From the NCBI GenBank assembly GCA_003132825.1, contig PKYX01000349.1, positions 1,376 to 13,107 on the forward strand: 11,732 nt of DNA, written 5' to 3'. The notes below the pieces were generated by a model. That model worked only from the letters and a program-made list of their open reading frames with translations, was not told where the DNA came from and ran no database searches. Shown one piece after another: positions 1-11,732 of this stretch. Position numbers and translations under genes: made by a program. Source of the stretch: Acidobacteriaceae bacterium. GTDB lineage: Bacteria > Acidobacteriota > Terriglobia > Terriglobales > Acidobacteriaceae. How positions within the stretch are numbered: the first letter of the stretch is position 1; each line of letters opens with the position of its first letter.

Positions 1-3000
1 GTCTGCACTCGCCAGATCGACGCTCGCGTTCGTGATGGTCAGTGGTGTGGCGGTATTGGCGTAGAAAAAGATCGGTTGGGCCGCGGTCGTGAAGTTGGCC
101 GTTTCTGTCTGGGTTGATAAGATCTGGGTTCCGGTATAGAGCAGCCCAAAGTTCGGGTCGGGGAAGTCATACCAGTTCAGTTGCCGCACCGCGAAGGTCT
201 GTTCATAGGAGATCAGGGCCGTCTGCCAGCCGCTAATACTGTAGTAGTCGCCGCCATAGGCAAAGATCACGCCCTGGTAGTGACCGTGGCAGGCGCCGTC
301 CGAAAGAGTGGGGGCGGCGGCCGTAACGTCGACCACGTCGTAGGGTGTGCCGACGTAGTTGAGAATCTGCTGGATCGCCGGGAAGTCGGCATAGCCCGCT
401 CCCGCATTGGCTGCGGCGTTGTTCACCACCAATATCTTCATGTCGATAGTGGGCGACGGGCAGGAGATCGCCGCGGTCGTGGACGCGGTGATCCATCCCG
501 TGTCGGAGTCCACGTAGGGCGCGATGGTCCCGTAGCTGGCCGTAATCGCATGCGCGCCATTGTCGGTTGCAAGTACAGTCGCCAGGCCTGCGCTGTTGAC
601 GTTGACTTCCTGAGGACTAAATGCCGCCCAAGTTGCAAGGCTGGTAAGGTTCTGGGTGCTGCCATTGCTGTAGGTCCCCAGCGCAGAGAATTGCTGCGTC
701 GCATTGAGGCCCAAAGTCGCGCCAACCGACGTCGTGCTGGTACCGCAAGAGGCCGACGGATAGGCTCCCAGGCACACCGCCACCGACTCCAAAACTGGAG
801 CCTGCACCGTTAACAGAGTGGATCCGGCCGCACCGTAAGTCGCGGTCACCGTGGTTGCGCCCTGTCCTGTGACCGTGGCCAGACCCGCAGTGTTGACGCC
901 GGCTACGCCGGCAGGCGAAGCTTGCCAGGTTGCCGAAGAGGTCACGGTGGCGGTGGTGCCATCGGTATAGGTGGCCAGGGCGGTGAATTGCACTTGGTTG
1001 TTCGTCGATCCGAAGGGCAGCGCGGAATTCGCCAGTCCGAGAGGGAATGTCGGGCTGGCAGGTGTAACCGCAACCGACTGCACGCCGGCCACTGTCAGCA
1101 CGAACGGCGCAGAGACGGGTGCGCCGGTAACTGTGGCGGTGATGTTCGTCGTCCCTCCAGCGGCGCTGAGGACACCCGTCGCCAGTCCGGCGGTGCTGCT
1201 GATGGTGGCCACGCCGGTATTGCTTGAGGCAAAGGTCGCGGTCACCGCGCCCGAGGTACCGTCGCTATAGGCTGCGGTGGCCGAGAACTGGTCGGTTCCG
1301 AAGGGATAGATCGACGGAGCGGGCGCCGAAACGGTTACCGAAGTGATGGTCTTCGACGTGACCGCAACCGCGGCGGCGGGGCTGGTCACCGTCGTGCCGC
1401 TCGTTTCCGTCACGGCCGCTGTGATCGTGGCGCTGCCGCCGCCGACGCCGGTTACGAGTCCGGTGGTGCTGACCGACGCGACTTTATTGTTCGACGTGCT
1501 CCAGACCGCTGCCGAGGTTACGTTCCCGGTGGTTCCGCCTGAGTAAGTGCCGGTCGCGGTAAGTTGCTCGGTCAAGCCGACCGCCAGGGTTGGAGTGGGA
1601 ACGGTGACCGCGACGGAGCGGAGATTGCTCACTTGCGCGCCCCCGGTCATGGCAACCACAAGCTGGCTGTTCGAAGCGCCGTAAGTGGTGGTGAGCGTCC
1701 CGGTCGTCGTGCCTACCACCGTGGGCGTGAAAACCACAGTGACGCTGCAGGAAGCAGCCGCTGCGAGCGAAGTCGTACACGTATTCGCGGTTATGGCGTA
1801 AGCCGCGGGGCTAGCTACGATGCTGCCGATCGCGACTGCCGAGGTCGTGCTGTTGGTTAGGGTGACGGAATGCGACTGGCTGGGGGTACCCACGTTGCGC
1901 GTGGTGCTGAAAGTAATCGAGGTCGGCGCGACCGTGAGCGGGCTGACCGCGGTTCCCGTCACGCTAACCGACTGCGGGCTTCCGGTGCCGGTGGTGTAAG
2001 CAACCGCGATGGTCCCGGTCTGCGCGCCAGTCGCGGTGAGTGTCGGGGCGAAGGTGGCGCTGAGGGTACAGGAGGCAGCAGCCGCCAAAGAAGTCGTGCA
2101 CCCAGTCGCGGCAAATTCCGTGTTCGTGCTGGTGATGGTGAGCGGCATTGCTGCGGCGGTGTTGTTCTTGACGGTAAAAGTCTTGGCGGCGCTGGTTGTG
2201 CCTTGCGTCACGTTACCAAACGCGCGGGAAGCAGGGGTGACAGTGATCGGAGAAACTCCGGTTCCTGACAAGGTGAGCGTCAGGGGACTGCCGGTTCCCG
2301 CAAAAGCTACTGTGATGTTCCCGGTTTGGGCAGCGGCAGCAGTGGGGGCAAAGGTAGCGGTGATGGTGCAGCTCGAAGAGGCCGGTACGGAGGCCCCGCA
2401 AGTACCCCCTGCTACGGCAAAGGGGGCGGCGGTTGAGATCGTCAGAGCTACTGCCGCAGTTTCAGTATTTCTTACCGTAAACGTGGATGCCGCGCTGGTC
2501 GTGCCTTCGCCGACCGAACCAAAGTTGTGGGTTGTCGGAGTAGCGGTGATCGGCGCAACTCCGGTCCCAGTGACCGCTGCCGATACCGGACTACCCACGC
2601 CGCTATAGGTGGCCGTTATGCTACCCGTCTGCGCACCGGTCGCTGCGGGACTGAACGTGACCCCGACGGTGCAGGACGCGGCCCCAGCCAACGAGCCCGT
2701 GCAAGTGGTGGTTGCCGGATTAAACAGCGCATTGCTGCTCGCGACACTCAGTCCTGAGATCGCGATCGTTCCGGCGTTCTTCACGGTGAAGGTGGTCGCC
2801 GCGCTGGTGGTCCCGACCGCCACCGAACCGAACCCATGGGTCGCCGGGGTCAGTGTGATCGGGGCGGTTCCGGTGCCCGTCAAGCTGGCGGTTTGCGTGC
2901 CCGCGCTATCGACAACCGTCAGGACCCCGGTCCGGGCGCCCGTAGCGCTCGGAGTGAAAGTGACGGTAATGGCGCAACTCGCGGCGGCCGCTACCGAGGC

Positions 3001-3264
3001 GCAAGTGCTGTTCGCAGTAAAGTCTCCGCTGGCCGATATGCTGGTCAGGGTAAGCGCAGCGGTGCCAGTATTCTTAAGGGTAAACGTGCCTTTAGTCGTG
3101 CTCAGGCTGCCCACTGCGGCTGAACCCAAGGCGCGAGACGCGGGCGTAAGCGTCGCGGTTTGGGCTTGCGCCGTCGGGGTGATGGCGGCGAAGAAAACCA
3201 AGAGCGCAAAGAAAGCGACGAGAATGGGAGTGCATGTTTGGGAAACTGGCAGGCGGCGCGTCAT
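1..3264 (-). CDS. Secreted multi-domain Ig-like repeat protein (ASH/HYDIN-type repeats, BIG2-like domains, Agd3-like C-terminal module), 3' end outside the window
   Basis: I read every codon from the ATG at 3264-3262 to base 1 and found no stop: 1088 codons, C-terminus missing. The start has GAGG at 3270-3273, 5 nt upstream. Residues 1-35 form a signal peptide: MTRR, a hydrophobic core (LVAFFALLVFFAA) and a likely cut after AQA. Residues about 36-545 hold five repeats of roughly 100 residues with the ASH/HYDIN ('choice-of-anchor D') pattern FGSVxxGTTS..FTVKN..C..SC.ITVTF.P..TG...G and a closing GTG. Residues about 549-930 hold four BIG2-like domains (LTATGTYSGGTT; A(T/V)W; GLAT). From about residue 940 the sequence changes: IDMKILVVN, then GWQTALISYEQTFAVRQ and WYDFPDPNFG. 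From memory this resembles the Agd3/CBM87 family. A secreted or surface protein acting on or binding glycans is inferred; no catalytic residues are visible in the part present. The domain order from residue 36 to 930 is very clear, the last module less so. Confidence 0.88.
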   Translation of the reverse strand, partial: MTRRLPVSQTCTPILVAFFALLVFFAAITPTAQAQTATLTPASRALGSAAVGSLSTTKGTFTLKNTGTAALTLTSISASGDFTANSTCASVAAAASCAITVTFTPSATGARTGVLTVVDSAGTQTASLTGTGTAPITLTPATHGFGSVAVGTTSAATTFTVKNAGTIAISGLSVASSNALFNPATTTCTGSLAGAASCTVGVTFSPAATGAQTGSITATYSGVGSPVSAAVTGTGVAPITATPTTHNFGSVGEGTTSAASTFTVRNTETAAVALTISTAAPFAVAGGTCGASVPASSSCTITATFAPTAAAAQTGNITVAFAGTGSPLTLTLSGTGVSPITVTPASRAFGNVTQGTTSAAKTFTVKNNTAAAMPLTITSTNTEFAATGCTTSLAAAASCTLSATFAPTLTATGAQTGTIAVAYTTGTGSPQSVSVTGTAVSPLTVAPTSITFSTTRNVGTPSQSHSVTLTNSTTSAVAIGSIVASPAAYAITANTCTTSLAAAASCSVTVVFTPTVVGTTTGTLTTTYGASNSQLVVAMTGGAQVSNLRSVAVTVPTPTLAVGLTEQLTATGTYSGGTTGNVTSAAVWSTSNNKVASVSTTGLVTGVGGGSATITAAVTETSGTTVTSPAAAVAVTSKTITSVTVSAPAPSIYPFGTDQFSATAAYSDGTSGAVTATFASSNTGVATISSTAGLATGVLSAAGGTTNITATVTGAPVSAPFVLTVAGVQSVAVTPASPTFPLGLANSALPFGSTNNQVQFTALATYTDGTTATVTSSATWQASPAGVAGVNTAGLATVTGQGATTVTATYGAAGSTLLTVQAPVLESVAVCLGAYPSASCGTSTTSVGATLGLNATQQFSALGTYSNGSTQNLTSLATWAAFSPQEVNVNSAGLATVLATDNGAHAITASYGTIAPYVDSDTGWITASTTAAISCPSPTIDMKILVVNNAAANAGAGYADFPAIQQILNYVGTPYDVVDVTAAAPTLSDGACHGHYQGVIFAYGGDYYSISGWQTALISYEQTFAVRQLNWYDFPDPNFGLLYTGTQILSTQTETANFTTAAQPIFFYANTATPLTITNASVDLASAD
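475..1620 (-). repeat. Four BIG2-like Ig domains in tandem
   Basis: Residues about 549-930 contain four units of 85-105 residues. Each opens with a variant of (S/T)VxV, followed by LTATGTYSGGTTGNVTS or its counterparts (FSATAAYSDGTSGAVTA, FTALATYTDGTTATVTS, FSALGTYSNGSTQNLTS), then a strand with VWSTSN, ATFASSN or ATWQASP, then GLxT. This is the classic BIG2 layout. Such domains usually act as stalks or spacers that place a terminal module away from the cell. Confidence 0.8.
1630..3159 (-). repeat. Five ASH/HYDIN-like protein repeats, each with a cysteine pair
   Basis: Five homologous units of about 100 codons lie in tandem at residues about 36-132, 133-238, 239-338, 339-440 and 443-545. Each has a Cys pair at the same place, C88/C97, C188/C198, C289/C299, C389/C399 and C496/C506, in the pattern C-x(8-9)-C with the second Cys always preceded by Ser. 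The even spacing suggests one short disulfide per domain after export. Copies 4 and 5 share the stretch TTSLAAAASC exactly. Confidence 0.8.
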
Positions 3265-3292
3265 AGAAACCTCGTGAGCTAACAAATGTGTG

Positions 3293-3305
3293 TCCCCTTC
3301 GGGGA
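3293..3305 (-). promoter_or_regulatory. Small hairpin in the 5' leader of the Ig-repeat gene
   Basis: TCCCC and GGGGA pair around a 3-nt TTC spacer. It sits about 20 nt upstream of the GAGG ribosome site of the minus-strand gene, so in its mRNA it would fold just before the translation start. It is short; a regulatory role is only possible. Confidence 0.3.
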
Positions 3306-3557
3306 TCGTGAATTTCCAAATGAGAATTCGGTAGTCTCGAGAACCGCCGATCAACCTGCCATTCGAATCTCCGCCCAGGATCACGGGCCTCTTCGATGTG
3401 CAGGGGGTATCGCCTGGGCCTAAAATGGCAAAAGCGAGACCGCAAGACCGCGACAGTTCTTCTGGGGGAGGGACTGTGCTGCGACCGACGTGCCACCGTT
3501 CAAGAAACACGGGCCCGGACTCGGTGTAGCGCCACTACCTACAGAGACTCTCTACTG

Positions 3558-4059: not shown

Positions 4060-5895
4060 ATGGATGATATGCATGATGATATGGATATGGAGGAGCAGGT
4101 TCCCGACCGCCCGTTACTTGTTTTCGACGGAGACTGCTCCTTCTGTAATGCTCTGGTCGACTATGGCAAGCGGATCACGGGCGAGCGGGTGCGATACGCG
4201 CCCTACCAGGAAGTTGGCCCCCAGTTCCCCCGCATTTCTCCCCAAGACTTCGCCTCCGCGGTAAAGCTGATCCTGCCCGGTGGCGAGGTGCGGAGCGGAG
4301 CGCACGCTGTATTCAGCGCCTTGGAGAGAACCCCCGGAAGGGGCTGGATGCTCGAGCTGTACACTCGCATCCCGGCGGTCGCGCCGATCTCGGAGACAGC
4401 TTACCGCGCGGTCGCCCGCCATCGGTCGCTCGCCTATCGGGTGACGAAGCTTTTGTGGGGGATCCCTCTCGAACCGGCGGCTGCTCGGTTATCAACCTGG
4501 CTTTTTCTCCGGCTGCTGGGTGCAATCTACCTTATCGCCTTCGCGTCCTTTGGAGTGCAGGCGCCGGGCCTGATCGGCTCTCGTGGGATTTTGCCGGTGG
4601 CCGAGTTTCTCCCCGCCGTGCGGCAGTATCTGGGAGCGTCGGCCTATTGGAGCGTTCCCACTTCCTTGTGGTTCAGCTCGAGCGACGGCTTCATCCGGGC
4701 CAACTGGATTGCCGGGGTCTGCCTTTCGGTCGTTCTGATGCTAGGTTTGAACTGGCGCTCGGTGCGAGTTGCACTCTTCGTTCTCTACCTCTCTCTTGCG
4801 GCCGCCAGCCAGGTGTTTTTGAGCTTCCAGTGGGATGCGCTGCTGCTCGAAATCGGTTTTCTTGCCATCTTTCTCGGGTCTTCACGGATCGTGGTCTGGC
4901 TGTTTCGCTGGTTGCTGTTCCGTCTGATGTTTCTCTCGGGGGCGGTGAAGCTGCTGAGCGGCGACATTTCCTGGCGGAGCTTCACGGCCCTGCCGGTGCA
5001 TTACGAAACCCAACCGTTGCCCACTCCTTTAGCGTGGTACGTCTACCAATGGCCGGCATGGTTTCATCACCTCTCGGTAGGAGTCGTGTTCGCGACGGAA
5101 CTACTGGTTCCATTTCTAATCTTCGCGCCGCGCCGTATCCGCTGCTTGGCTGCGCTCGCGATTAGCGCGTTTCAGCTGCTGATTTTTCTGACCGGGAACT
5201 ATGCATTCTTCAACCTCCTGACCATTGCGCTGTGCCTGTTCCTTCTCGACGATGCATTGCTTCGTAGCATCGTTCCCCGGAGGACGGTCGCGAAAATATT
5301 GGAGGCTCGGGGGCCCAACGGGTGGCGGCCGCTGCGCAACACCGTCTGCCGAGCCCTGGCCGCTCTGGTGGTCTTTGTGACTGCCTTTCAACTGAGCGCG
5401 ATGTTTCTGCACTTTCGATGGGCGCCGGCAGAAACTGTGATTGCCGCGGTTGCGCCGTTTGAAATCATCAACACCTACGGGCTTTTCGCCGTGATGACCA
5501 CGTCGCGTCCGGAAATCGTGATCGAAGGTTCCTCGGACGGCGTGACCTGGCTGGCTTACGAGTTCAAGTACAAGCCGGGAGAGCTGACACGACGGCCTGC
5601 TTGGGTGGAACCCTATCAGCCTCGGCTCGACTGGCAAATGTGGTTTGCGGCACTTGGCGACTACCAGAGCGATCCCTGGACGGTGCAGTTGATGGCCAAG
5701 CTGCTCGAGGGCTCTCCCGATGTTCTCGGCCTGTTCGGAAAGAACCCGTTTCCTGGCTCTCCGCCTCATTTTGTCCGAGCCTTGCTCTATGAGTATCGCT
5801 TCACGACGCCTGCGGAACGACGAGCCACCGGAGACTGGTGGCGCCGGGAATTGAAGCGAACCTATCTGCCTTCCCTGGCGTTGCACGATCGCTAA
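4060..5895 (+). CDS. DCC thiol-disulfide oxidoreductase domain fused to lipase maturation factor (LMF) membrane domain
   Basis: The product has 611 residues. Residues about 19-130 match the DCC family (DUF393): LLVFDGDCSFCN with Cys26 and Cys29 as a CxxC pair at the end of the first strand, as in thioredoxin-like folds. From about residue 145 the protein becomes a multi-pass membrane protein of the lipase maturation factor family. Diagnostic stretches are QWDALLLEIGFLAIFLG (257-273), LMFLSGAVKLLSGD (289-302), HYETQPLPTPLAW (314-326), NTYGLFAVMTTSRPEIVIEG (471-490) and a C-terminal part with FKYKPGEL, RLDWQMWFAALG, LLEGSPDVLGLF and YEYRFTT. In vertebrates LMF1 helps dimeric lipases fold in the ER; the bacterial role is not established. 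An in-frame TAG at 4051 rules out an earlier start, but no Shine-Dalgarno supports 4060, so the ATGs at 4069, 4081 or 4087 are alternatives. The gene converges on the hybrid kinase gene with 49 bp between stops and no clear terminator. A redox-linked folding function is inference. Confidence 0.9.
   Translation: MDDMHDDMDMEEQVPDRPLLVFDGDCSFCNALVDYGKRITGERVRYAPYQEVGPQFPRISPQDFASAVKLILPGGEVRSGAHAVFSALERTPGRGWMLELYTRIPAVAPISETAYRAVARHRSLAYRVTKLLWGIPLEPAAARLSTWLFLRLLGAIYLIAFASFGVQAPGLIGSRGILPVAEFLPAVRQYLGASAYWSVPTSLWFSSSDGFIRANWIAGVCLSVVLMLGLNWRSVRVALFVLYLSLAAASQVFLSFQWDALLLEIGFLAIFLGSSRIVVWLFRWLLFRLMFLSGAVKLLSGDISWRSFTALPVHYETQPLPTPLAWYVYQWPAWFHHLSVGVVFATELLVPFLIFAPRRIRCLAALAISAFQLLIFLTGNYAFFNLLTIALCLFLLDDALLRSIVPRRTVAKILEARGPNGWRPLRNTVCRALAALVVFVTAFQLSAMFLHFRWAPAETVIAAVAPFEIINTYGLFAVMTTSRPEIVIEGSSDGVTWLAYEFKYKPGELTRRPAWVEPYQPRLDWQMWFAALGDYQSDPWTVQLMAKLLEGSPDVLGLFGKNPFPGSPPHFVRALLYEYRFTTPAERRATGDWWRRELKRTYLPSLALHDR
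4063..4086 (+). repeat. Two tandem 12-bp units in the start of the DCC-LMF gene
   Basis: GATGATATGCAT is followed directly by GATGATATGGAT (11 of 12 identical). It encodes DDMH-DDMD and gives a Met/Asp/His-rich N-terminus with four closely spaced ATG codons in frame. It may be a small duplication at the start of the gene. Confidence 0.6.
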
Positions 5896-5944: not shown

Positions 5945-8056
5945 CTAAGATGCACCCGCGGCTTTTGCTTTGGCTGAAGGTCGCAGGGCTTCCTGCACCT
6001 TGATGAGCAGAGCGCGCAGAGTAAACGGCTTTTCCAGAAGCAGAATCTGCGGATCGAGAACGCCGTATTGGGCGATCAGGTCGCTGGCGTAGCCCGACAG
6101 GTAGAGCACCTTGATGGTGGGGCGCAATTCGGTCAGCCGATCAGCAAGGTCGCGCCCGTTCATGCCGGGCATGATGACGTCGGTCAAAAGAAGCTGAATG
6201 GGGCCGGAATGTTTCTCGGCGGTCGCGATCGCGGCGTTGCCGTCTGCAGCCTCGAGCACGCAATAGCCCTGATTCTCCAGACAATTCCGCGCCAGGGTGC
6301 GCAGCGCCTCTTCGTCCTCGACCAGTAATATGGTCTCGGAACCGCGGGGAAGAATCTCGGCGGTTCGGACCGCGGGGGTGGACTGCACCGTGCCCTCGGC
6401 TTGCGGCAGGTAGATCTTGAAGGTCGTACCCTGCCCCGGCTCGCTATAAGCGCTGATGTAGCCGCCGTTCTGCTTCACGATTCCGTACACCGTCGACAGC
6501 CCGAGCCCGGTTCCTTTCCCGGGTTCTTTGGTGGTGAAAAATGGTTCAAAGATGCGCGCCAGGGTTTCTTTGTCCATCCCGCAACCGGTGTCGCTGAAGC
6601 TCAAAATGACATAGCGGCCGGGCTTGAAATGGAGATGCTGCAGGGAGTAGGTTTCATCGAGATCGGCGTTCTCCGTCCGGATCGTCACCTTGCCACCCTG
6701 GAGCATGGCGTCGCGCGCGTTGACCGCCAGATTCATCAGGATCTGCTCCATCTGGCTCGCATCCGCTTTTACGCGCGCCAGGCCGACATCGCGCGTGATG
6801 AAGATCTCGATGTTTTCTCCGATCAGCCTCCGGAGCATTTTTTCCATTTCCACAATCAGGGAATTCAAGTCCAGGATGACCGGCTGAATCACCTGCTTGC
6901 GGCTGAAGGCCAGGAGCTGGCGGGTTAAGCCAGCCGCACGATAGGCGGCCTTGGCAATTTCTTCGGCATAGCGGACCAATGGGTCGTCCGCGGGCAGCCG
7001 CATCTGCAGAAGGCCACTGTAACCGGTGATCACGCTCAGGGCGTTATTGAAATCGTGCGCCACGCCCCCCGCCAGAAGACCGACGGCTTCCATTTTTTGC
7101 GATTGCGTGAGCTGTTCCTCGAGCAGCTTGCGCTGGGTGATGTCCTCATTCATCCCTTCGTAACGCACCACAGCGCCATCCTCAAAAACGGAGCGGGCGC
7201 TGGCCGAGATCCATATCTTGCGGCCATCCTTGCGGTACACCTGGCACTCGAAGTTCCGGACGATTCCCTGTTGTTCGAGCGCGCGGCTGAATTCTTCCCG
7301 GCGCTTGGGATCGACATACACTTGCCCGCGGATGTCGTTGACGCAGGCCAACAGATCCTGGGGAGACTCGTAGCCGAGCATCGTCGCCATGGTCGGGTTC
7401 ACGGTCAGGAAACGTCCCTGGGGCGTGCTCTGGAAGATGCCGATGACCGCGTCTTCCACCATGCTGCGATATTTTCGTTCCGTCTCCTGGAGCGCTTTTT
7501 CCGCCTGCTTCTGTTCCGTGATGTCGCGTGCGACCACAAGCACCGCGTTTTGCCCGGCAAAGGTGAGGCGGTCGGAGGCGATTTCAACGTCAATGAACCG
7601 GCCGTCTTTCAGACGATGCTTCCAAGTTCCGGCATCCCGCAGTCCGCTACGAGCCTTGGCGGCATCTTCAAGCAGCCGCGGCACATCCTCTTGCGGACGG
7701 ATTTCGGTGATTCGCATGGTCAGAAATTCTTGGCGGGAATAGCCGTAGTGCTCAACGGCTGCGGAATTGACTTCCAGAAAACGCGTGCTCTCCGCGTCGA
7801 ACACCCACATGGGTTGCGGGTTGTTCATGAACAGGAGTCGAAAGCCGTCCTCGTTTTGCGCGAGCCTTTCCTCAACGGCGTGGGCGTTTGGCGGCTCACG
7901 GGCAAGAATGGGCGGTTTGGGGGGGCCATTTTTCCGGGCCATTAATAACTGCATGGCAGGGCAAGAGTCGTGCGCCTGCCATAGTTCCAGCGTGCGGAGA
8001 ACCGCCGGCTTCGAGGGCGGATGGCCACAGCATGGCTTCTCTATTGTGGATAGCAC
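5945..8056 (-). CDS. PAS-PAS hybrid sensor histidine kinase with C-terminal receiver domain
   Basis: The frame gives 703 residues. The order is PAS 1 (about 66-185, ending in ARDITEQKQAE), PAS 2 (about 194-310, ending in NEDITQRK), HisKA dimerisation domain with H334 in GGVAHDFNNALS, HATPase with N-box N442/N446, DTGCGM at 489-494 and GKGTGLGLS at 513-521, then a receiver with E580/D581/E582, phospho-acceptor D626 in LLLTDVIMP, S654 as the switch residue and K676-P677. All catalytic residues are present. No membrane helix or signal peptide is visible, so it should sense a cytoplasmic signal through its PAS domains. The HDFNN form is typical of NtrB-like kinases. The longest start is GTG at 8056, whose best purine stretch (GGGAGG) overlaps the codon; ATG at 7954 or 7942 would start just before the conserved part and are at least as likely. 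The upstream neighbour, on the opposite strand, is the receiver-TonB gene. No stand-alone regulator gene follows. Confidence 0.93.
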   Translation of the reverse strand: MLSTIEKPCCGHPPSKPAVLRTLELWQAHDSCPAMQLLMARKNGPPKPPILAREPPNAHAVEERLAQNEDGFRLLFMNNPQPMWVFDAESTRFLEVNSAAVEHYGYSRQEFLTMRITEIRPQEDVPRLLEDAAKARSGLRDAGTWKHRLKDGRFIDVEIASDRLTFAGQNAVLVVARDITEQKQAEKALQETERKYRSMVEDAVIGIFQSTPQGRFLTVNPTMATMLGYESPQDLLACVNDIRGQVYVDPKRREEFSRALEQQGIVRNFECQVYRKDGRKIWISASARSVFEDGAVVRYEGMNEDITQRKLLEEQLTQSQKMEAVGLLAGGVAHDFNNALSVITGYSGLLQMRLPADDPLVRYAEEIAKAAYRAAGLTRQLLAFSRKQVIQPVILDLNSLIVEMEKMLRRLIGENIEIFITRDVGLARVKADASQMEQILMNLAVNARDAMLQGGKVTIRTENADLDETYSLQHLHFKPGRYVILSFSDTGCGMDKETLARIFEPFFTTKEPGKGTGLGLSTVYGIVKQNGGYISAYSEPGQGTTFKIYLPQAEGTVQSTPAVRTAEILPRGSETILLVEDEEALRTLARNCLENQGYCVLEAADGNAAIATAEKHSGPIQLLLTDVIMPGMNGRDLADRLTELRPTIKVLYLSGYASDLIAQYGVLDPQILLLEKPFTLRALLIKVQEALRPSAKAKAAGAS

Positions 8057-8076
8057 CTCCCGCGAACCCGACCAAG

Positions 8077-8090
8077 AGTACAGACGTACT
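8077..8090. repeat. Inverted repeat between kinase and receiver-TonB genes
   Basis: AGTAC and GTACT flank AGAC. It is 21 bp upstream of the GTG at 8056 in the divergent promoter region. It may be an operator half-site pair; by length alone it could be chance. Confidence 0.3.
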
Positions 8091-8117
8091 GTTGACCGAG
8101 CCCGGAAGCGGCGGCTG

Positions 8118-8132
8118 GGCGGGAATCCCGCC
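8118..8132. repeat. 15-bp palindrome in the divergent promoter region
   Basis: GGCGGGA and TCCCGCC are perfect inverted copies around a single A. The one-base centre (three bases if only six pairs form) makes it look more like a binding site for a dimeric regulator than an RNA hairpin. It is near the middle of the 212 bp shared by the two divergent genes and could control both. The regulator is unknown. Confidence 0.4.
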
Positions 8133-8268
8133 AGGGCACTTTGGTAACCCGCGCAGGACCGGTGTACGACTGGACAGGTAATTCGGCGGGTGTTACCTGG
8201 CCCTGCGGGAATGGCGCGCGGTCAATTCGTAACTTGCCGCTCGGCCCTCGAGAACCTAGGCTGGTCTC

Positions 8269-9630
8269 ATGTCGCCAAGGTCTCTGCTGTTCTCCTCCGA
8301 TCAGGAGACATCGCGCATACTCAACCAAGCTCTTCGTGAGCTCGAGCTCCAGGTCGAATCCTGCCAGGAAATATTTGCCGCGCTGAAAAGCCTGACCAGC
8401 CGGGCCTTTGACCTGGTCGTGGTCGATTGGGATGAGGGTCTCGAGGCTAGCTTCTTGCTCAAGACCGCGCGGGAACTGAAGTCCAACCGGAGCGCCTTTG
8501 CCATCGTCATTGGCCGGGCGGAAGCGAGCGCCGCACTCGAGCAGGCGGGCGCCGATCTGGTCCTCAGCAAACCCGTCCACCCCGACCGGGTCAGACACGC
8601 TCTGCTGACCAGCAACGAATTCATGTCTCACATCAAGCCTCGGCTGACTCTCGAGCGCCCGACTGCGATTCCCGGTATGGGAACGGGAGCGTGGTCCACC
8701 CCAATTCCAGAACGGGAACCGGCGGCGCTCGCCCCGGTTTCTCCGCTCGAGAGCCTCACTCGGGATCCGGCACCGCCGAGATTCGCGAGCCTGGACGCAG
8801 GTTTCGCTCGTCCGTCTCTGGCGCAGAGGTTTTTTCAGCGCAGCGTGCCCCCTCGGCCCCCTGCCCGACATCGGAGCCGAGACCGTAGTACGGCGTTCTT
8901 GCGGGTTGCGGCGATTGGTGTGGCTTTCTTTGCGGTGGGCTATGTGTTCAGCCAACCCCTGACCAAGGCGGGGCGCTCGGCGGAACAGATTTCCCGCACC
9001 ACCTGGGAAAAGACGCAGGGCTGGTTCGAAGAGCCGAGGGTCGAAGCCCATACCAGTACTTCAGAACTGGCCGAGACGGATGAGCCCGACCCGCCCCAGC
9101 GGCCGGGGAAGTCGTCCGCGAGAATCCGCGTCATGCCGGTCCGTACTACTGCGGTCGCGCATGCCCAGCTTGCGAGCGAACCCGCGGCTTCTGTGCCCGA
9201 GGCAGCGCCGCCCGACCAAGGTCAGATGACCGCGGCCGTGAGTAGCGTCCACATTCCGGAAAGTATAGCCAGCCCCTTCCCGGGAGTCGCCACGGTGCGA
9301 AATGTGGCCGCGAGCATCGCTCCGGTTCTCCTCAATGCCCTGGAACCGATCACGGTGCCTGAGCAGCTGTCGGAGAAACTACTGCTCGAGAAAGTTGAGC
9401 CCAATTATCCAGAAAAGGCAGTACGCGCCGGCCTGCAGGGGCCGGTTGTGCTGCAGGCCTGGATCGGAAGAGACGGCAGGATCCGCGACTTGAAGCTGAT
9501 TCGGGGCTCGTTGCTCCTCGGCCAGGCCGCCTGCGAAGCCGTGAAGCAATGGCGGTACAAGCCGTACCTGCTGAACGGGCAGGCGGTCGAAGCCGAAACC
9601 TACGTGACCGTGGACTTCACACTCCCGTAA
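8269..9630 (+). CDS. Receiver-like domain fused through one membrane helix to a TonB C-terminal domain
   Basis: The product has 453 residues. Residues 4-112 have a receiver pattern: RSLLFSSDQET with D11 as the metal-binding acid, FDLVVVDWDEG with D53 at the phospho-acceptor place, then AIVIGRAEA and DLVLSKPV with K101-P102. Two positions are degenerate: Ser10 stands where the first acid normally is, and Gly82 where the Thr/Ser switch normally is. A Pro-rich linker (about 120-207) leads to a single hydrophobic helix at about 209-228 (FLRVAAIGVAFFAVGYVFSQ) preceded by basic residues, which puts the receiver in the cytoplasm. A second Pro/Ala-rich stretch is followed by a TonB C-terminal domain at about 371-453 with VEPNYPEKAVRAGLQG, GRDGRIRDLKLIRG, AVKQWRYKP and the ending VTVDFTLP. 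The TonB end should lie in the periplasm and contact outer-membrane receptors; TonB normally works with ExbB/ExbD, which are not in this window. ATG at 8269 has a weak ribosome site. The domain calls are sure; that the receiver regulates energy transduction is inference. Confidence 0.9.
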   Translation: MSPRSLLFSSDQETSRILNQALRELELQVESCQEIFAALKSLTSRAFDLVVVDWDEGLEASFLLKTARELKSNRSAFAIVIGRAEASAALEQAGADLVLSKPVHPDRVRHALLTSNEFMSHIKPRLTLERPTAIPGMGTGAWSTPIPEREPAALAPVSPLESLTRDPAPPRFASLDAGFARPSLAQRFFQRSVPPRPPARHRSRDRSTAFLRVAAIGVAFFAVGYVFSQPLTKAGRSAEQISRTTWEKTQGWFEEPRVEAHTSTSELAETDEPDPPQRPGKSSARIRVMPVRTTAVAHAQLASEPAASVPEAAPPDQGQMTAAVSSVHIPESIASPFPGVATVRNVAASIAPVLLNALEPITVPEQLSEKLLLEKVEPNYPEKAVRAGLQGPVVLQAWIGRDGRIRDLKLIRGSLLLGQAACEAVKQWRYKPYLLNGQAVEAETYVTVDFTLP

Positions 9631-9670
9631 AACCTCCGTCCGCGCACCTTTCGCGTCAACGACTTCACAA

Positions 9671-9690
9671 TTTTTTACAGCTTTTTACTG
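9671..9690. repeat. Tandem 10-bp direct repeat upstream of the sensor kinase gene
   Basis: TTTTTTACAG is followed at once by CTTTTTACTG (8 of 10 identical). The 10-bp period equals about one helical turn, which fits a site for a regulator bound as a tandem dimer just upstream of the candidate promoter. OmpR-family regulators, such as the one encoded at 11468, often bind such direct repeats. The T-rich stretch might instead be the tail of a terminator for the gene ending at 9630, but no good stem precedes it. Confidence 0.35.
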
Positions 9691-9694
9691 GCAT

Positions 9695-9723
9695 TTGACA
9701 CCTGCCCTGTGACACTGAAGTAT
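9695..9723 (+). promoter_or_regulatory. Candidate sigma-70 promoter of the kinase-regulator operon
   Basis: A perfect TTGACA (9695-9700) is followed after 17 bp by AAGTAT (9718-9723), a partial -10 match. Transcription would start near 9730, giving a leader of about 44 nt to the ATG at 9774. TGACAC also occurs twice here (9696-9701 and 9710-9715), so the region may carry a regulator site overlapping the promoter. Confidence 0.4.
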
Positions 9724-9738
9724 GTTTCGAGTTGGCAA

Positions 9739-9762
9739 GGCCCGGGGCAGCTTTCTCGGGCC
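9739..9762 (+). promoter_or_regulatory. Hairpin in the leader of the sensor kinase gene
   Basis: GGCCCG (9739-9744) and CGGGCC (9757-9762) form a perfect 6-bp GC stem with a 12-nt loop. It ends 11 nt before the ATG at 9774, between the candidate transcription start and the ribosome site, and could slow initiation. Confidence 0.35.
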
Positions 9763-9773
9763 GCGAGTGGCGC

Positions 9774-11471
9774 ATGGCGAAGCAACGTCGGGACGATCGA
9801 ACTCGTCTGATCCTCGGTCTTGAATTGGCCGTGGTATTGCCGGCCGCGGCGCTGGTGATCCTGAGCGCCCTTCATTTGATGTCCGTCCAGCGCGATCGAG
9901 GGGTCGAGGCGGCGATTCAGCGCGATTTCACCCAGGTGCTGCAGGTCTCCGAGAAGCAGTTCAATCAACGCGCCTACGACTTGATGGATGCGGTTCGCGC
10001 CGACTTCCCCGCTCCCGGCCAGGCGTGCGCGATCAACCTGGATCGTGTTCTGGCGGCGCATTCCTATGTCGCTCATGTTTTTGTCTATGACCCCGACGCC
10101 GGCCTGATCGTTCGGTCCCAGCCGTCCAGTCTCAAAGATGCCGGGTTTCGCGATGAAGCCGCAGACTTCTCCCACATGATGGATAACTGGATGAAGATGC
10201 AATATAAGGAGACGGCTGACGAAATCTCCGGCATGCAGGTGCAGAAGAGAGGCGCACCGTATTATTTCTTTCACAACTCAGCGCCCCGCGGCGAGAAACA
10301 CCTCTATGAGTCGGTAGCCTTGTTTCTGATCAAAGGCGATTCCGGCGACGCCAAGGGCATTGGCGGCATTGCCTTCGACGCAGACTACCTGCGCCAGCAG
10401 TTTTTCCCCGAGATGCTGGACACGGTGATGAGCCGCAATCTGACCGAGGGCCACACCGAAAAGAACCCCGCCGTCATGATGGTGCGCGTTAGGAGCGAGT
10501 ACACCCCCCTGGCCGCGGCGTCGGGCTGGGATGGCGGTGCGCCGGAGATGGAAAGGAATCTCGAAGGCGCCTTTCCCGGGCTTACGCTGGCGATTAAGTT
10601 GCGCGGAACCACCCTCGCCGCTTTGGGCCAGCGCTTCGTGCGCATCAATTTCTTGGTGCTGGGCGGGCTCACCCTGCTGCTGGCTGGAGGAATCGTGCTG
10701 ACCCATCGCAATGTTGCCCGGGAAATGGCTCTGGCCCGGCTGAAATCCGACTTTGTCTCCAATGTTTCGCATGAATTGCGCACTCCGCTTTCTTTGATCC
10801 GGCTCTATGCCGAGACCCTCGAGCTCGGGCGCCTCAACAGTCCAGAAAAGTATCAGGAGTACTACCACATCATTCGCAAGGAGAGCGAACGGCTGAGCGC
10901 GTTGATCAACAACATCCTCGATTTTTCGCGGATCGAAGCCGGCGGGAAGGAATACGACTTTCGCGAAACCGACATGCGGGAGCTGGTGCACGCCACGCTC
11001 GATTCCTACCGCTACCAGATCGAGCAGAACGGTTTCGTCTTTGAGGAAAAAATCAGCGAGAATGTTCCGCCATTGTGCGTGGATCGGGAGGCCGTGTCGC
11101 GTTCTTTATTGAACCTGGTGAACAACGCCCTGAAATATTCCCAGCAGCGGAAGTACATCGCGGTCAACCTGTATCGCACCAACGGATCGGTGAAGCTGGA
11201 AGTGATCGACCATGGCATCGGCGTTCCTTCCCAGGAGCAGGAAAAGATTTTCGAGAAGTTTTACCGGGTCGGCGATCCCCTGGTCCACAACACCAAGGGC
11301 AGCGGATTGGGGCTTTCTTTGGTGCGCCACATCGTGCACGCCCACGGCGGAGAAGTATCGGTGAACAGCACTCCCGGCGAGGGCAGCAAATTCACCATCT
11401 CGCTGCCGGTCAGCACGGGTCCGGGCGATGGCAAGACCGCCTCCCGAGGAGATCAGGAGCTCGCCGGATGA
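9774..11471 (+). CDS. Membrane-bound sensor histidine kinase (HisKA + HATPase) with large extracytoplasmic domain
   Basis: From ATG at 9774 the product has 565 residues. The frame extends to a TTG at 9732, but that lies almost on the candidate transcription start, so I prefer 9774. Membrane helices are at about 12-35 and 291-310. Between them a sensor region of about 255 residues includes VAHVFVYDPDAGLIVRSQP, which recalls Cache-type sensors but is not a sure match. The kinase core follows directly, with no clear HAMP domain: H333 in SNVSHELRTPLS, N-box LLNLVNNALKYS (N447/N451), DHGIGVP (479-485), IFEKFYRV and KGSGLGLSLV (508-517). All catalytic motifs are intact. The stop overlaps the next start (ATGA at 11468-11471), so the kinase and regulator are almost surely co-translated and form a cognate pair. 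The signal is unknown. Confidence 0.93.
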   Translation: MAKQRRDDRTRLILGLELAVVLPAAALVILSALHLMSVQRDRGVEAAIQRDFTQVLQVSEKQFNQRAYDLMDAVRADFPAPGQACAINLDRVLAAHSYVAHVFVYDPDAGLIVRSQPSSLKDAGFRDEAADFSHMMDNWMKMQYKETADEISGMQVQKRGAPYYFFHNSAPRGEKHLYESVALFLIKGDSGDAKGIGGIAFDADYLRQQFFPEMLDTVMSRNLTEGHTEKNPAVMMVRVRSEYTPLAAASGWDGGAPEMERNLEGAFPGLTLAIKLRGTTLAALGQRFVRINFLVLGGLTLLLAGGIVLTHRNVAREMALARLKSDFVSNVSHELRTPLSLIRLYAETLELGRLNSPEKYQEYYHIIRKESERLSALINNILDFSRIEAGGKEYDFRETDMRELVHATLDSYRYQIEQNGFVFEEKISENVPPLCVDREAVSRSLLNLVNNALKYSQQRKYIAVNLYRTNGSVKLEVIDHGIGVPSQEQEKIFEKFYRVGDPLVHNTKGSGLGLSLVRHIVHAHGGEVSVNSTPGEGSKFTISLPVSTGPGDGKTASRGDQELAG

Positions 11472-11732
11472 CCAAAATCCTGATTGTCGAAGACGAGCCC
11501 AACATGGTCGCCGGCCTGCGCGACAACTTTGAGTTTGAGGGATACGAAGTCCTGAGCGCCGCGGACGGTATCGCGGGCCTGGAATGCGCCCTCCGGGAAT
11601 CGCCGGACATCGTCCTGCTCGACGTCATGATGCCCCGGATGAGCGGACTCGAGGTATGTAAGCAGCTGAAAGCCCAACGGCCTTCGATTCCGATCATCAT
11701 GCTCACCGCCCGCGGCCAAGAAGTCGACAAAG
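11468..11732 (+). CDS. Response regulator, receiver domain, probably OmpR/PhoB family (3' end outside the window)
   Basis: The first 88 codons are present, starting at an ATG that shares ATGA with the stop of the kinase gene and has AGGAG at 11455-11459, 8 nt upstream. The receiver has MTKILIVEDEPN (E8, D9, E10), the phospho-acceptor D52 in IVLLDVMMPRMSG, and T80 in IIMLTARG; the conserved Lys lies beyond the edge. The sequence style and the coupling to a HisKA kinase suggest an OmpR/PhoB winged-helix output domain, but that part is not in the window. Confidence 0.9.
   Translation, partial: MTKILIVEDEPNMVAGLRDNFEFEGYEVLSAADGIAGLECALRESPDIVLLDVMMPRMSGLEVCKQLKAQRPSIPIIMLTARGQEVDK

Follow-up and report, generated by a model that had tools for sequence, protein, structure and literature searches.

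A pseudo-receiver domain joined through a membrane helix to a TonB C-terminal domain in an acidobacterial protein family

A single open reading frame of a soil acidobacterium (Acidobacteriaceae) encodes a protein in which a receiver-fold domain, one membrane helix and a TonB C-terminal domain (TonB_C) follow one another, and the fusion was confirmed as real and conserved. Judged by its residues, the N-terminal domain is a pseudo-receiver, and the membrane helix lacks the residue pair through which TonB proteins contact their motor. We propose that the protein could serve as an adaptor spanning the cell envelope.

Architecture and conservation of the fusion protein

The window (the whole stretch of DNA that was analyzed, 11,732 nt) lies on contig PKYX01000349.1 of a genome that is 76% complete. 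The features relevant to the fusion are as follows.

8269..9630, + strand: pseudo-receiver, membrane helix and TonB_C protein, 453 aa (open frame, Pfam, structural model, homologs)
8269..8649, + strand: receiver-fold domain with an extra helix, residues 1-127, including S9/S10, D53, G82, V98 and K101 (Pfam, model, alignments)
8650..8883, + strand: cytoplasmic disordered linker, residues 128-205, with the basic stretch PPARHRSRDRS directly before the membrane helix
8884..8952, + strand: single membrane helix, residues 206-228, without Ser-x3-His; helix confidence is low in the model
8953..9363, + strand: periplasmic linker, residues 229-365, disordered for the most part
9364..9630, + strand: TonB C-terminal domain, residues 366-453, and stop codon (Pfam, model, Foldseek)
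9774..11471, + strand: histidine kinase, HisKA and HATPase_c (ATG at 9774 chosen by eye; first possible start at 9732)
11468..11732, + strand: response regulator, cut by the contig end, its ATG overlapping the kinase stop codon
5945..8056, - strand: hybrid kinase, PAS-PAS-HisKA-HATPase-REC, divergent from the fusion gene

The initial annotation of this DNA had read a receiver-like fold, a single membrane helix and a complete TonB C-terminal domain in one frame, and both Pfam and the structural model agreed. The TonB_C match (72 bits, residues 377-452) keeps its conserved residues, and the domain matched that of TonB2 (2k9k). Structure prediction of the N-terminal region, which the annotation had suggested, gave a five-fold beta-alpha receiver fold over residues 1-127, seen in the secondary structure of the model and in its structure matches; the VIA-align structure rows span model residues 1-135 only and are uninformative on the TonB_C half. 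From the predicted topology, the pseudo-receiver is likely cytoplasmic and TonB_C periplasmic. A promoter and terminator consensus scan of 8050-9900 found nothing above shuffled sequences.

Of 7998 candidates scored in a protein search, 719 qualified as relatives at E<=1e-3. The domain order was found again in homologs, a search for which had also been suggested, and 118 of the 120 listed relatives aligned in a single piece with 96% or more of the query, against 69% and 53% for the remaining two, so the fusion does not arise from a frameshift. A frameshift joining two genes, which the annotation had named among the outcomes that would overturn its reading, and likewise a chimera were ruled out by the one open frame together with the full-length homologs; a third-position G+C of 0.66-0.88 in all nine full 150-base blocks of the gene was also counted against both. 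A separate search with residues 1-125 gave 336 matches, 120 of them listed. Pfam labels show a receiver in some homologs only, since the domain scores lie near or below the Pfam cut-off, and these labels were not taken as a count.

The N-terminal domain

Residues were counted in 164 homologs, including ten from the search with residues 1-125 that carry no TonB_C label (P0122, P0123, P0124, P0133, P0135, P0140, P0148, P0151, P0155, P0159). By eye, these ten stop within linkers or enter seemingly out-of-frame sequence, and they were taken for broken or contig-end copies; the residue picture was the same in the 154 homologs that keep TonB_C.

In an alignment with the ordinary regulators of the neighboring genes, Ser9 and Ser10 take the place of the receiver's acid pair, with D11 coming directly after them. 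Position 9 is Ser in 158 homologs (Cys in 3, gap in 3) and position 10 is Ser in 161 (gap in 3), with an acid at neither position in any homolog, while position 11 is Asp in 154. Most CheY rows of the structural alignment pair model residue 1 with CheY residue 4 (or 2 with 5, or 3 with 6), and with an ungapped strand 1 this amounts to that register too; a few rows have another starting point, such as 3rvl (1 on 2) and 1e6l and 2id9 (1 on 3). A rival register, obtained by profile alignment to CheY, places D11 on the second acid and needs a gap within helix 1; we consider it less likely. In the preferred register D11, which the annotation had listed as kept, lies just after the acid positions.

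D53 is Asp in 164/164 homologs, and the residue four positions further on (D+4) is Gly in just as many. At the Thr/Ser position at the end of strand 4, where the annotation had noted Gly82, Ala occurs in 114 homologs, Gly in 37 (151/164 for the two together), Thr in 7, Val in 5 and Ser in 1. Position 101, the Lys before a conserved Pro that the annotation had listed as kept, is Lys in 90 homologs, Arg in 73 and Gln in 1. At the aromatic position three residues before it (K-3), Val is found in 161/164. The receiver switch is described as coupling the Thr and the K-3 aromatic (PMC12632262), and both are lost in most homologs. Conservation is highest in the b3a3 loop, the KP pair, the SSD loop and helix 3 and lowest in helix 4, so the conserved surface is not centered on the usual a4-b5-a5 output face.

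Bourret and colleagues define a pseudo-receiver as a computationally found receiver lacking at least one of five residues (PMC12632262). By the residues counted above, the domain is a pseudo-receiver under this definition, which makes phosphotransfer to D53, and canonical phosphorylation of the domain in general, unlikely. The invariance of D53 nevertheless points the other way. The first Foldseek match to the receiver model was the receiver of FrzS, which is reported to be unphosphorylated and not to bind Mg2+, its second acid being replaced by Ser and its Thr by Gly (PMC1974792). The two domains are alike in the Ser at the second acid and the Gly or Ala in the Thr place; FrzS, however, has lost the phosphorylatable Asp that the fusion family keeps as D53, and the text consulted on FrzS mentions neither the membrane helix nor the TonB_C that the fusion protein has. 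A 2025 review describes the switching of bacterial pseudo-receivers as a mystery (PMC12632262).

The membrane helix and the TonB C-terminal domain

The membrane helices of TonB and TolA are described as carrying an SHLS motif whose Ser and His contact ExbB and TolQ (PMC12215075). A Ser-x3-His with its His within residues 206-228 was found in 0/164 homologs of the fusion protein; elsewhere the pattern occurred 15 times, in 13/164 homologs, with the His at 232 or 204. The helix is conserved at L211 (144 of the 164), G224 (150), Y225 (155) and S228 (148), and at no position of 211-228 is Asp, Glu, Lys, Arg or His the commonest residue. The fusion protein resembles TonB and TolA in its membrane helix, long periplasmic linker and TonB_C fold, whereas it lacks the Ser-x3-His that they carry and has a long cytoplasmic part that includes a folded domain. 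The annotation had called it a TonB energy transducer. Its TonB_C is complete, but a helix without Ser-x3-His leaves 'energy transducer' unsupported, and going by the amino acid sequence the protein is not evidently one. Automatic names such as 'protein TonB' (among the jgi names) can hide proteins without energy-coupling residues.

The genome has 29 TonB_C matches, four of them in frames shorter than 120 residues. Ser-x3-His was present in 5 of the 25 testable entries (C409, C232, C552, C62 and C278), a set in which one frame with two TonB_C domains is counted twice and the window's protein is included. One ExbB-type and four ExbD-type matches were found in the genome, none of them on the window's contig.

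A published precedent for a signaling domain joined to TonB_C is GltG of Myxococcus xanthus, a predicted transmembrane protein with FHA and TonB_C for which two-hybrid binding to the motor protein AglR is reported (PMC3169522). Both proteins run from a signaling domain through a membrane helix to TonB_C; GltG has an FHA domain where the fusion protein has a pseudo-receiver, and no Pfam match to FHA was found in the latter at E up to 1. GltG is part of the AglRQS gliding machine, whereas the window's contig contains no gene of the ExbB or ExbD type. Neighboring genes of relatives were surveyed by eye, and motor partners of the fusion protein could be encoded elsewhere. The open-licence papers searched included none on GltJ and its zinc finger and GYF domains.

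By analogy with GltG, for which AglRQS is the presumed motor, a motor of the ExbBD/TolQR type might drive the fusion protein through a helix contact other than Ser-x3-His, with the pseudo-receiver setting when or where the motor engages. The conserved helix residues and the ExbB- and ExbD-type genes of the genome are consistent with this explanation. Against it stand the lack of such matches on the window's contig and a helix in which no charged residue or His predominates anywhere in 211-228, and we consider it unlikely.

Distribution and related fusions

Within the window's family, a profile of the receiver domain matched 158/398 genomes at E<=1e-10. In a sample of 396 genomes from across the phylum it matched only 6 at 1e-12, each of them a member of that family and one of them the window's genome; since these counts take in PilZ-bearing relatives, they measure the domain and not the fusion. 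Distant subfamilies with the same domain order are present in other acidobacteria, two such fusions standing in tandem in L072 and L074; in the L039 tandem pair, the first member has no TonB_C match.

Seven matches to the receiver profile were found in the window's genome at E<=1e-12: the window's protein, a second pseudo-receiver-TonB_C protein that belongs to a distant subfamily (G000:C31), C476, and four proteins in which PilZ follows (G000:C82, L201; C14, L202; C285:6979-7335, L204; C419, L205). The receiver part of these four scored 14.8 to 30.2 bits against a Pfam cut-off of 30.2. The domain thus represents a lineage-specific pseudo-receiver family joined to PilZ or TonB_C outputs. The same genome encodes a GAF-TonB_C protein (G000:C285:142-369, - strand, L126; GAF_2 50 bits, TonB_C 67 bits), a search with which found 400 proteins, both labels being carried by 116 of the 120 listed. 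The window's protein is therefore not the only TonB_C protein to carry a cytoplasmic signaling domain; there are several. No description of a receiver-TonB or GAF-TonB fusion was found in the open-licence papers searched.

A further TonB_C protein (G000:C452:4549-4749, - strand, L132) has by eye an N-terminal PilZ-like DxSxxG motif and no Pfam PilZ match.

Neighboring genes

The annotation had pointed to two neighboring kinases as possible phosphodonors. The downstream kinase, probably a membrane protein given a hydrophobic N-terminus seen by eye, does recur beside the fusion gene; the upstream hybrid kinase does not, as it gave only weak matches, to the other kinase and regulator, at relatives' loci and no close counterpart was seen there. 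The kinase follows the fusion in eleven relatives (L182, L184, L185, L187, L188, L189, L190, L191, L194, L195 and L196; L190, L191 and L196 are contigs of L013, L009 and L010). At these loci the kinases are 63-73% identical to that of the window, the fusions just 39-47%. Fusion and kinase genes are separated by 116-970 bases in 11 loci. A regulator comes after the kinase in ten of the eleven, L184 ending at that point; in L196 it consists of REC and Trans_reg_C. No kinase was found downstream of the fusion in L181, L183, L186 and L192, or in L193 and L197, where the downstream sequence available was less than 1 kb. Searched for in its own right, the kinase was matched in 56/396 genomes at E<=1e-30. 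Among the best 30 kinase loci, the window's and 13 others carry a fusion gene no more than 1.5 kb upstream. The other 16 have none in the upstream sequence available, up to 1.5 kb, although L229 among them lies at a contig edge and is uninformative, so the kinase pair also occurs without a fusion beside it.

In ten loci, the co-encoded regulators keep the acid pair, Asp, Thr and Lys; a normal two-component system thus adjoins the pseudo-receiver. By eye, helix 1 of the ten aligned fusion domains is little like helix 1 of the co-aligned regulators, which means that the fusion domain is not an evident mimic of the kinase's normal partner. A comparable arrangement is CmrRST of Clostridioides difficile, in which a kinase, a regulator and a pseudo-receiver regulator are encoded together and contact of CmrT with CmrS/CmrR has been proposed, with expression-level control listed as an alternative (PMC12632262). 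Both systems combine a two-component pair with a pseudo-receiver protein; CmrT is an OmpR-family regulator (PMC12548384), whereas the output here is a transmembrane TonB_C protein.

If expression-level control applied here, the fusion protein might be a constitutive scaffold in which the pseudo-receiver does no more than localize or oligomerize the protein, TonB_C anchors it to the outer membrane, and the kinase and regulator set expression with no contact between them and the protein. The gaps between fusion and kinase would leave space for promoters, but the pocket and helix 3 are strongly conserved, which speaks against such a role, and we regard it as quite improbable. Very improbable, in our judgment, is that a phosphorylatable receiver gates an ExbB/ExbD-energized TonB, whereby a two-component signal would control TonB-dependent transport without transcription: the conserved D53 and Lys/Arg101, the complete TonB_C and the position of the fusion upstream of the kinase at 14 of the best 30 kinase loci favor it, but the metal-binding acids are absent at both positions, the Thr/Ser is missing in 156/164 homologs, the aromatic at K-3 is missing, helix 1 by eye has little in common with that of the regulators and the membrane helix has no Ser-x3-His.

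By eye, the genes upstream of the fusion at 14 loci share no theme. Directly upstream of it in L190, L191 and L196 are genes resembling hypF, a hydrogenase maturation protease or hydrogenase subunits (also by eye).

A proposed trans-envelope adaptor

The explanation that we prefer, and to which we give an even chance, is that the fusion protein acts as an adaptor across the envelope, its pseudo-receiver docking to a partner that probably belongs to the two-component system next to it. The pseudo-receiver would work by binding a partner and not by phosphorylation, touching the neighboring kinase or regulator much as proposed for CmrT. A flexible linker, the membrane helix and then a long, likewise flexible linker would tie it to the periplasmic TonB_C. 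This domain may touch a partner in the outer membrane or the periplasm, so that occupancy on either side of the envelope would alter signaling or placement on the opposite side. The computed basis of this proposal is the fold, the domain order, the likely topology, the loss of most catalytic residues, the absence of Ser-x3-His and the recurrent adjacency of the kinase and regulator. The FrzS-like fold, the Ser-Ser acid pair, the loss of both Thr and aromatic, a conserved surface away from the usual output face, the kinase adjacency, the CmrRST-like pairing with a normal regulator and the helix without Ser-x3-His argue for an adaptor. Several observations argue against it: an invariant D53, a nearly invariant Lys/Arg101 and a pocket that ranks among the best-conserved parts are more than a pure docking module needs; the fusion is absent from 16 of the 30 kinase loci and the kinase from six fusion loci; the 116-970-base gaps weaken the case for a common transcript; and the conserved TonB_C residues would also fit a true transducer.

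More broadly, and tentatively, an acidobacterial lineage may have turned TonB_C into the trans-envelope half of a signaling protein by wiring a pseudo-receiver or GAF domain to a periplasmic binder of outer-membrane partners. Direct contact would then let a two-component system sense or set the state of outer-membrane transporters, with neither the Ton motor nor a phosphorylated module involved; we think this unlikely. To our knowledge, trans-envelope signaling through TonB-type domains is known mainly from energized systems. The fusion family offers a testable case in which a pseudo-receiver is linked both to a normal kinase/regulator pair and to a TonB_C in the periplasm.

Other genes in the window

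At 4060-5895 (+ strand), a DCC1-like thiol-disulfide oxidoreductase domain is fused to LMF1 and LMF1_C (lipase maturation factor). The gene at 1-3510 (- strand), which runs off the window, encodes a long product that carries HYDIN/ASH-type and Big_2 Ig-like repeats.
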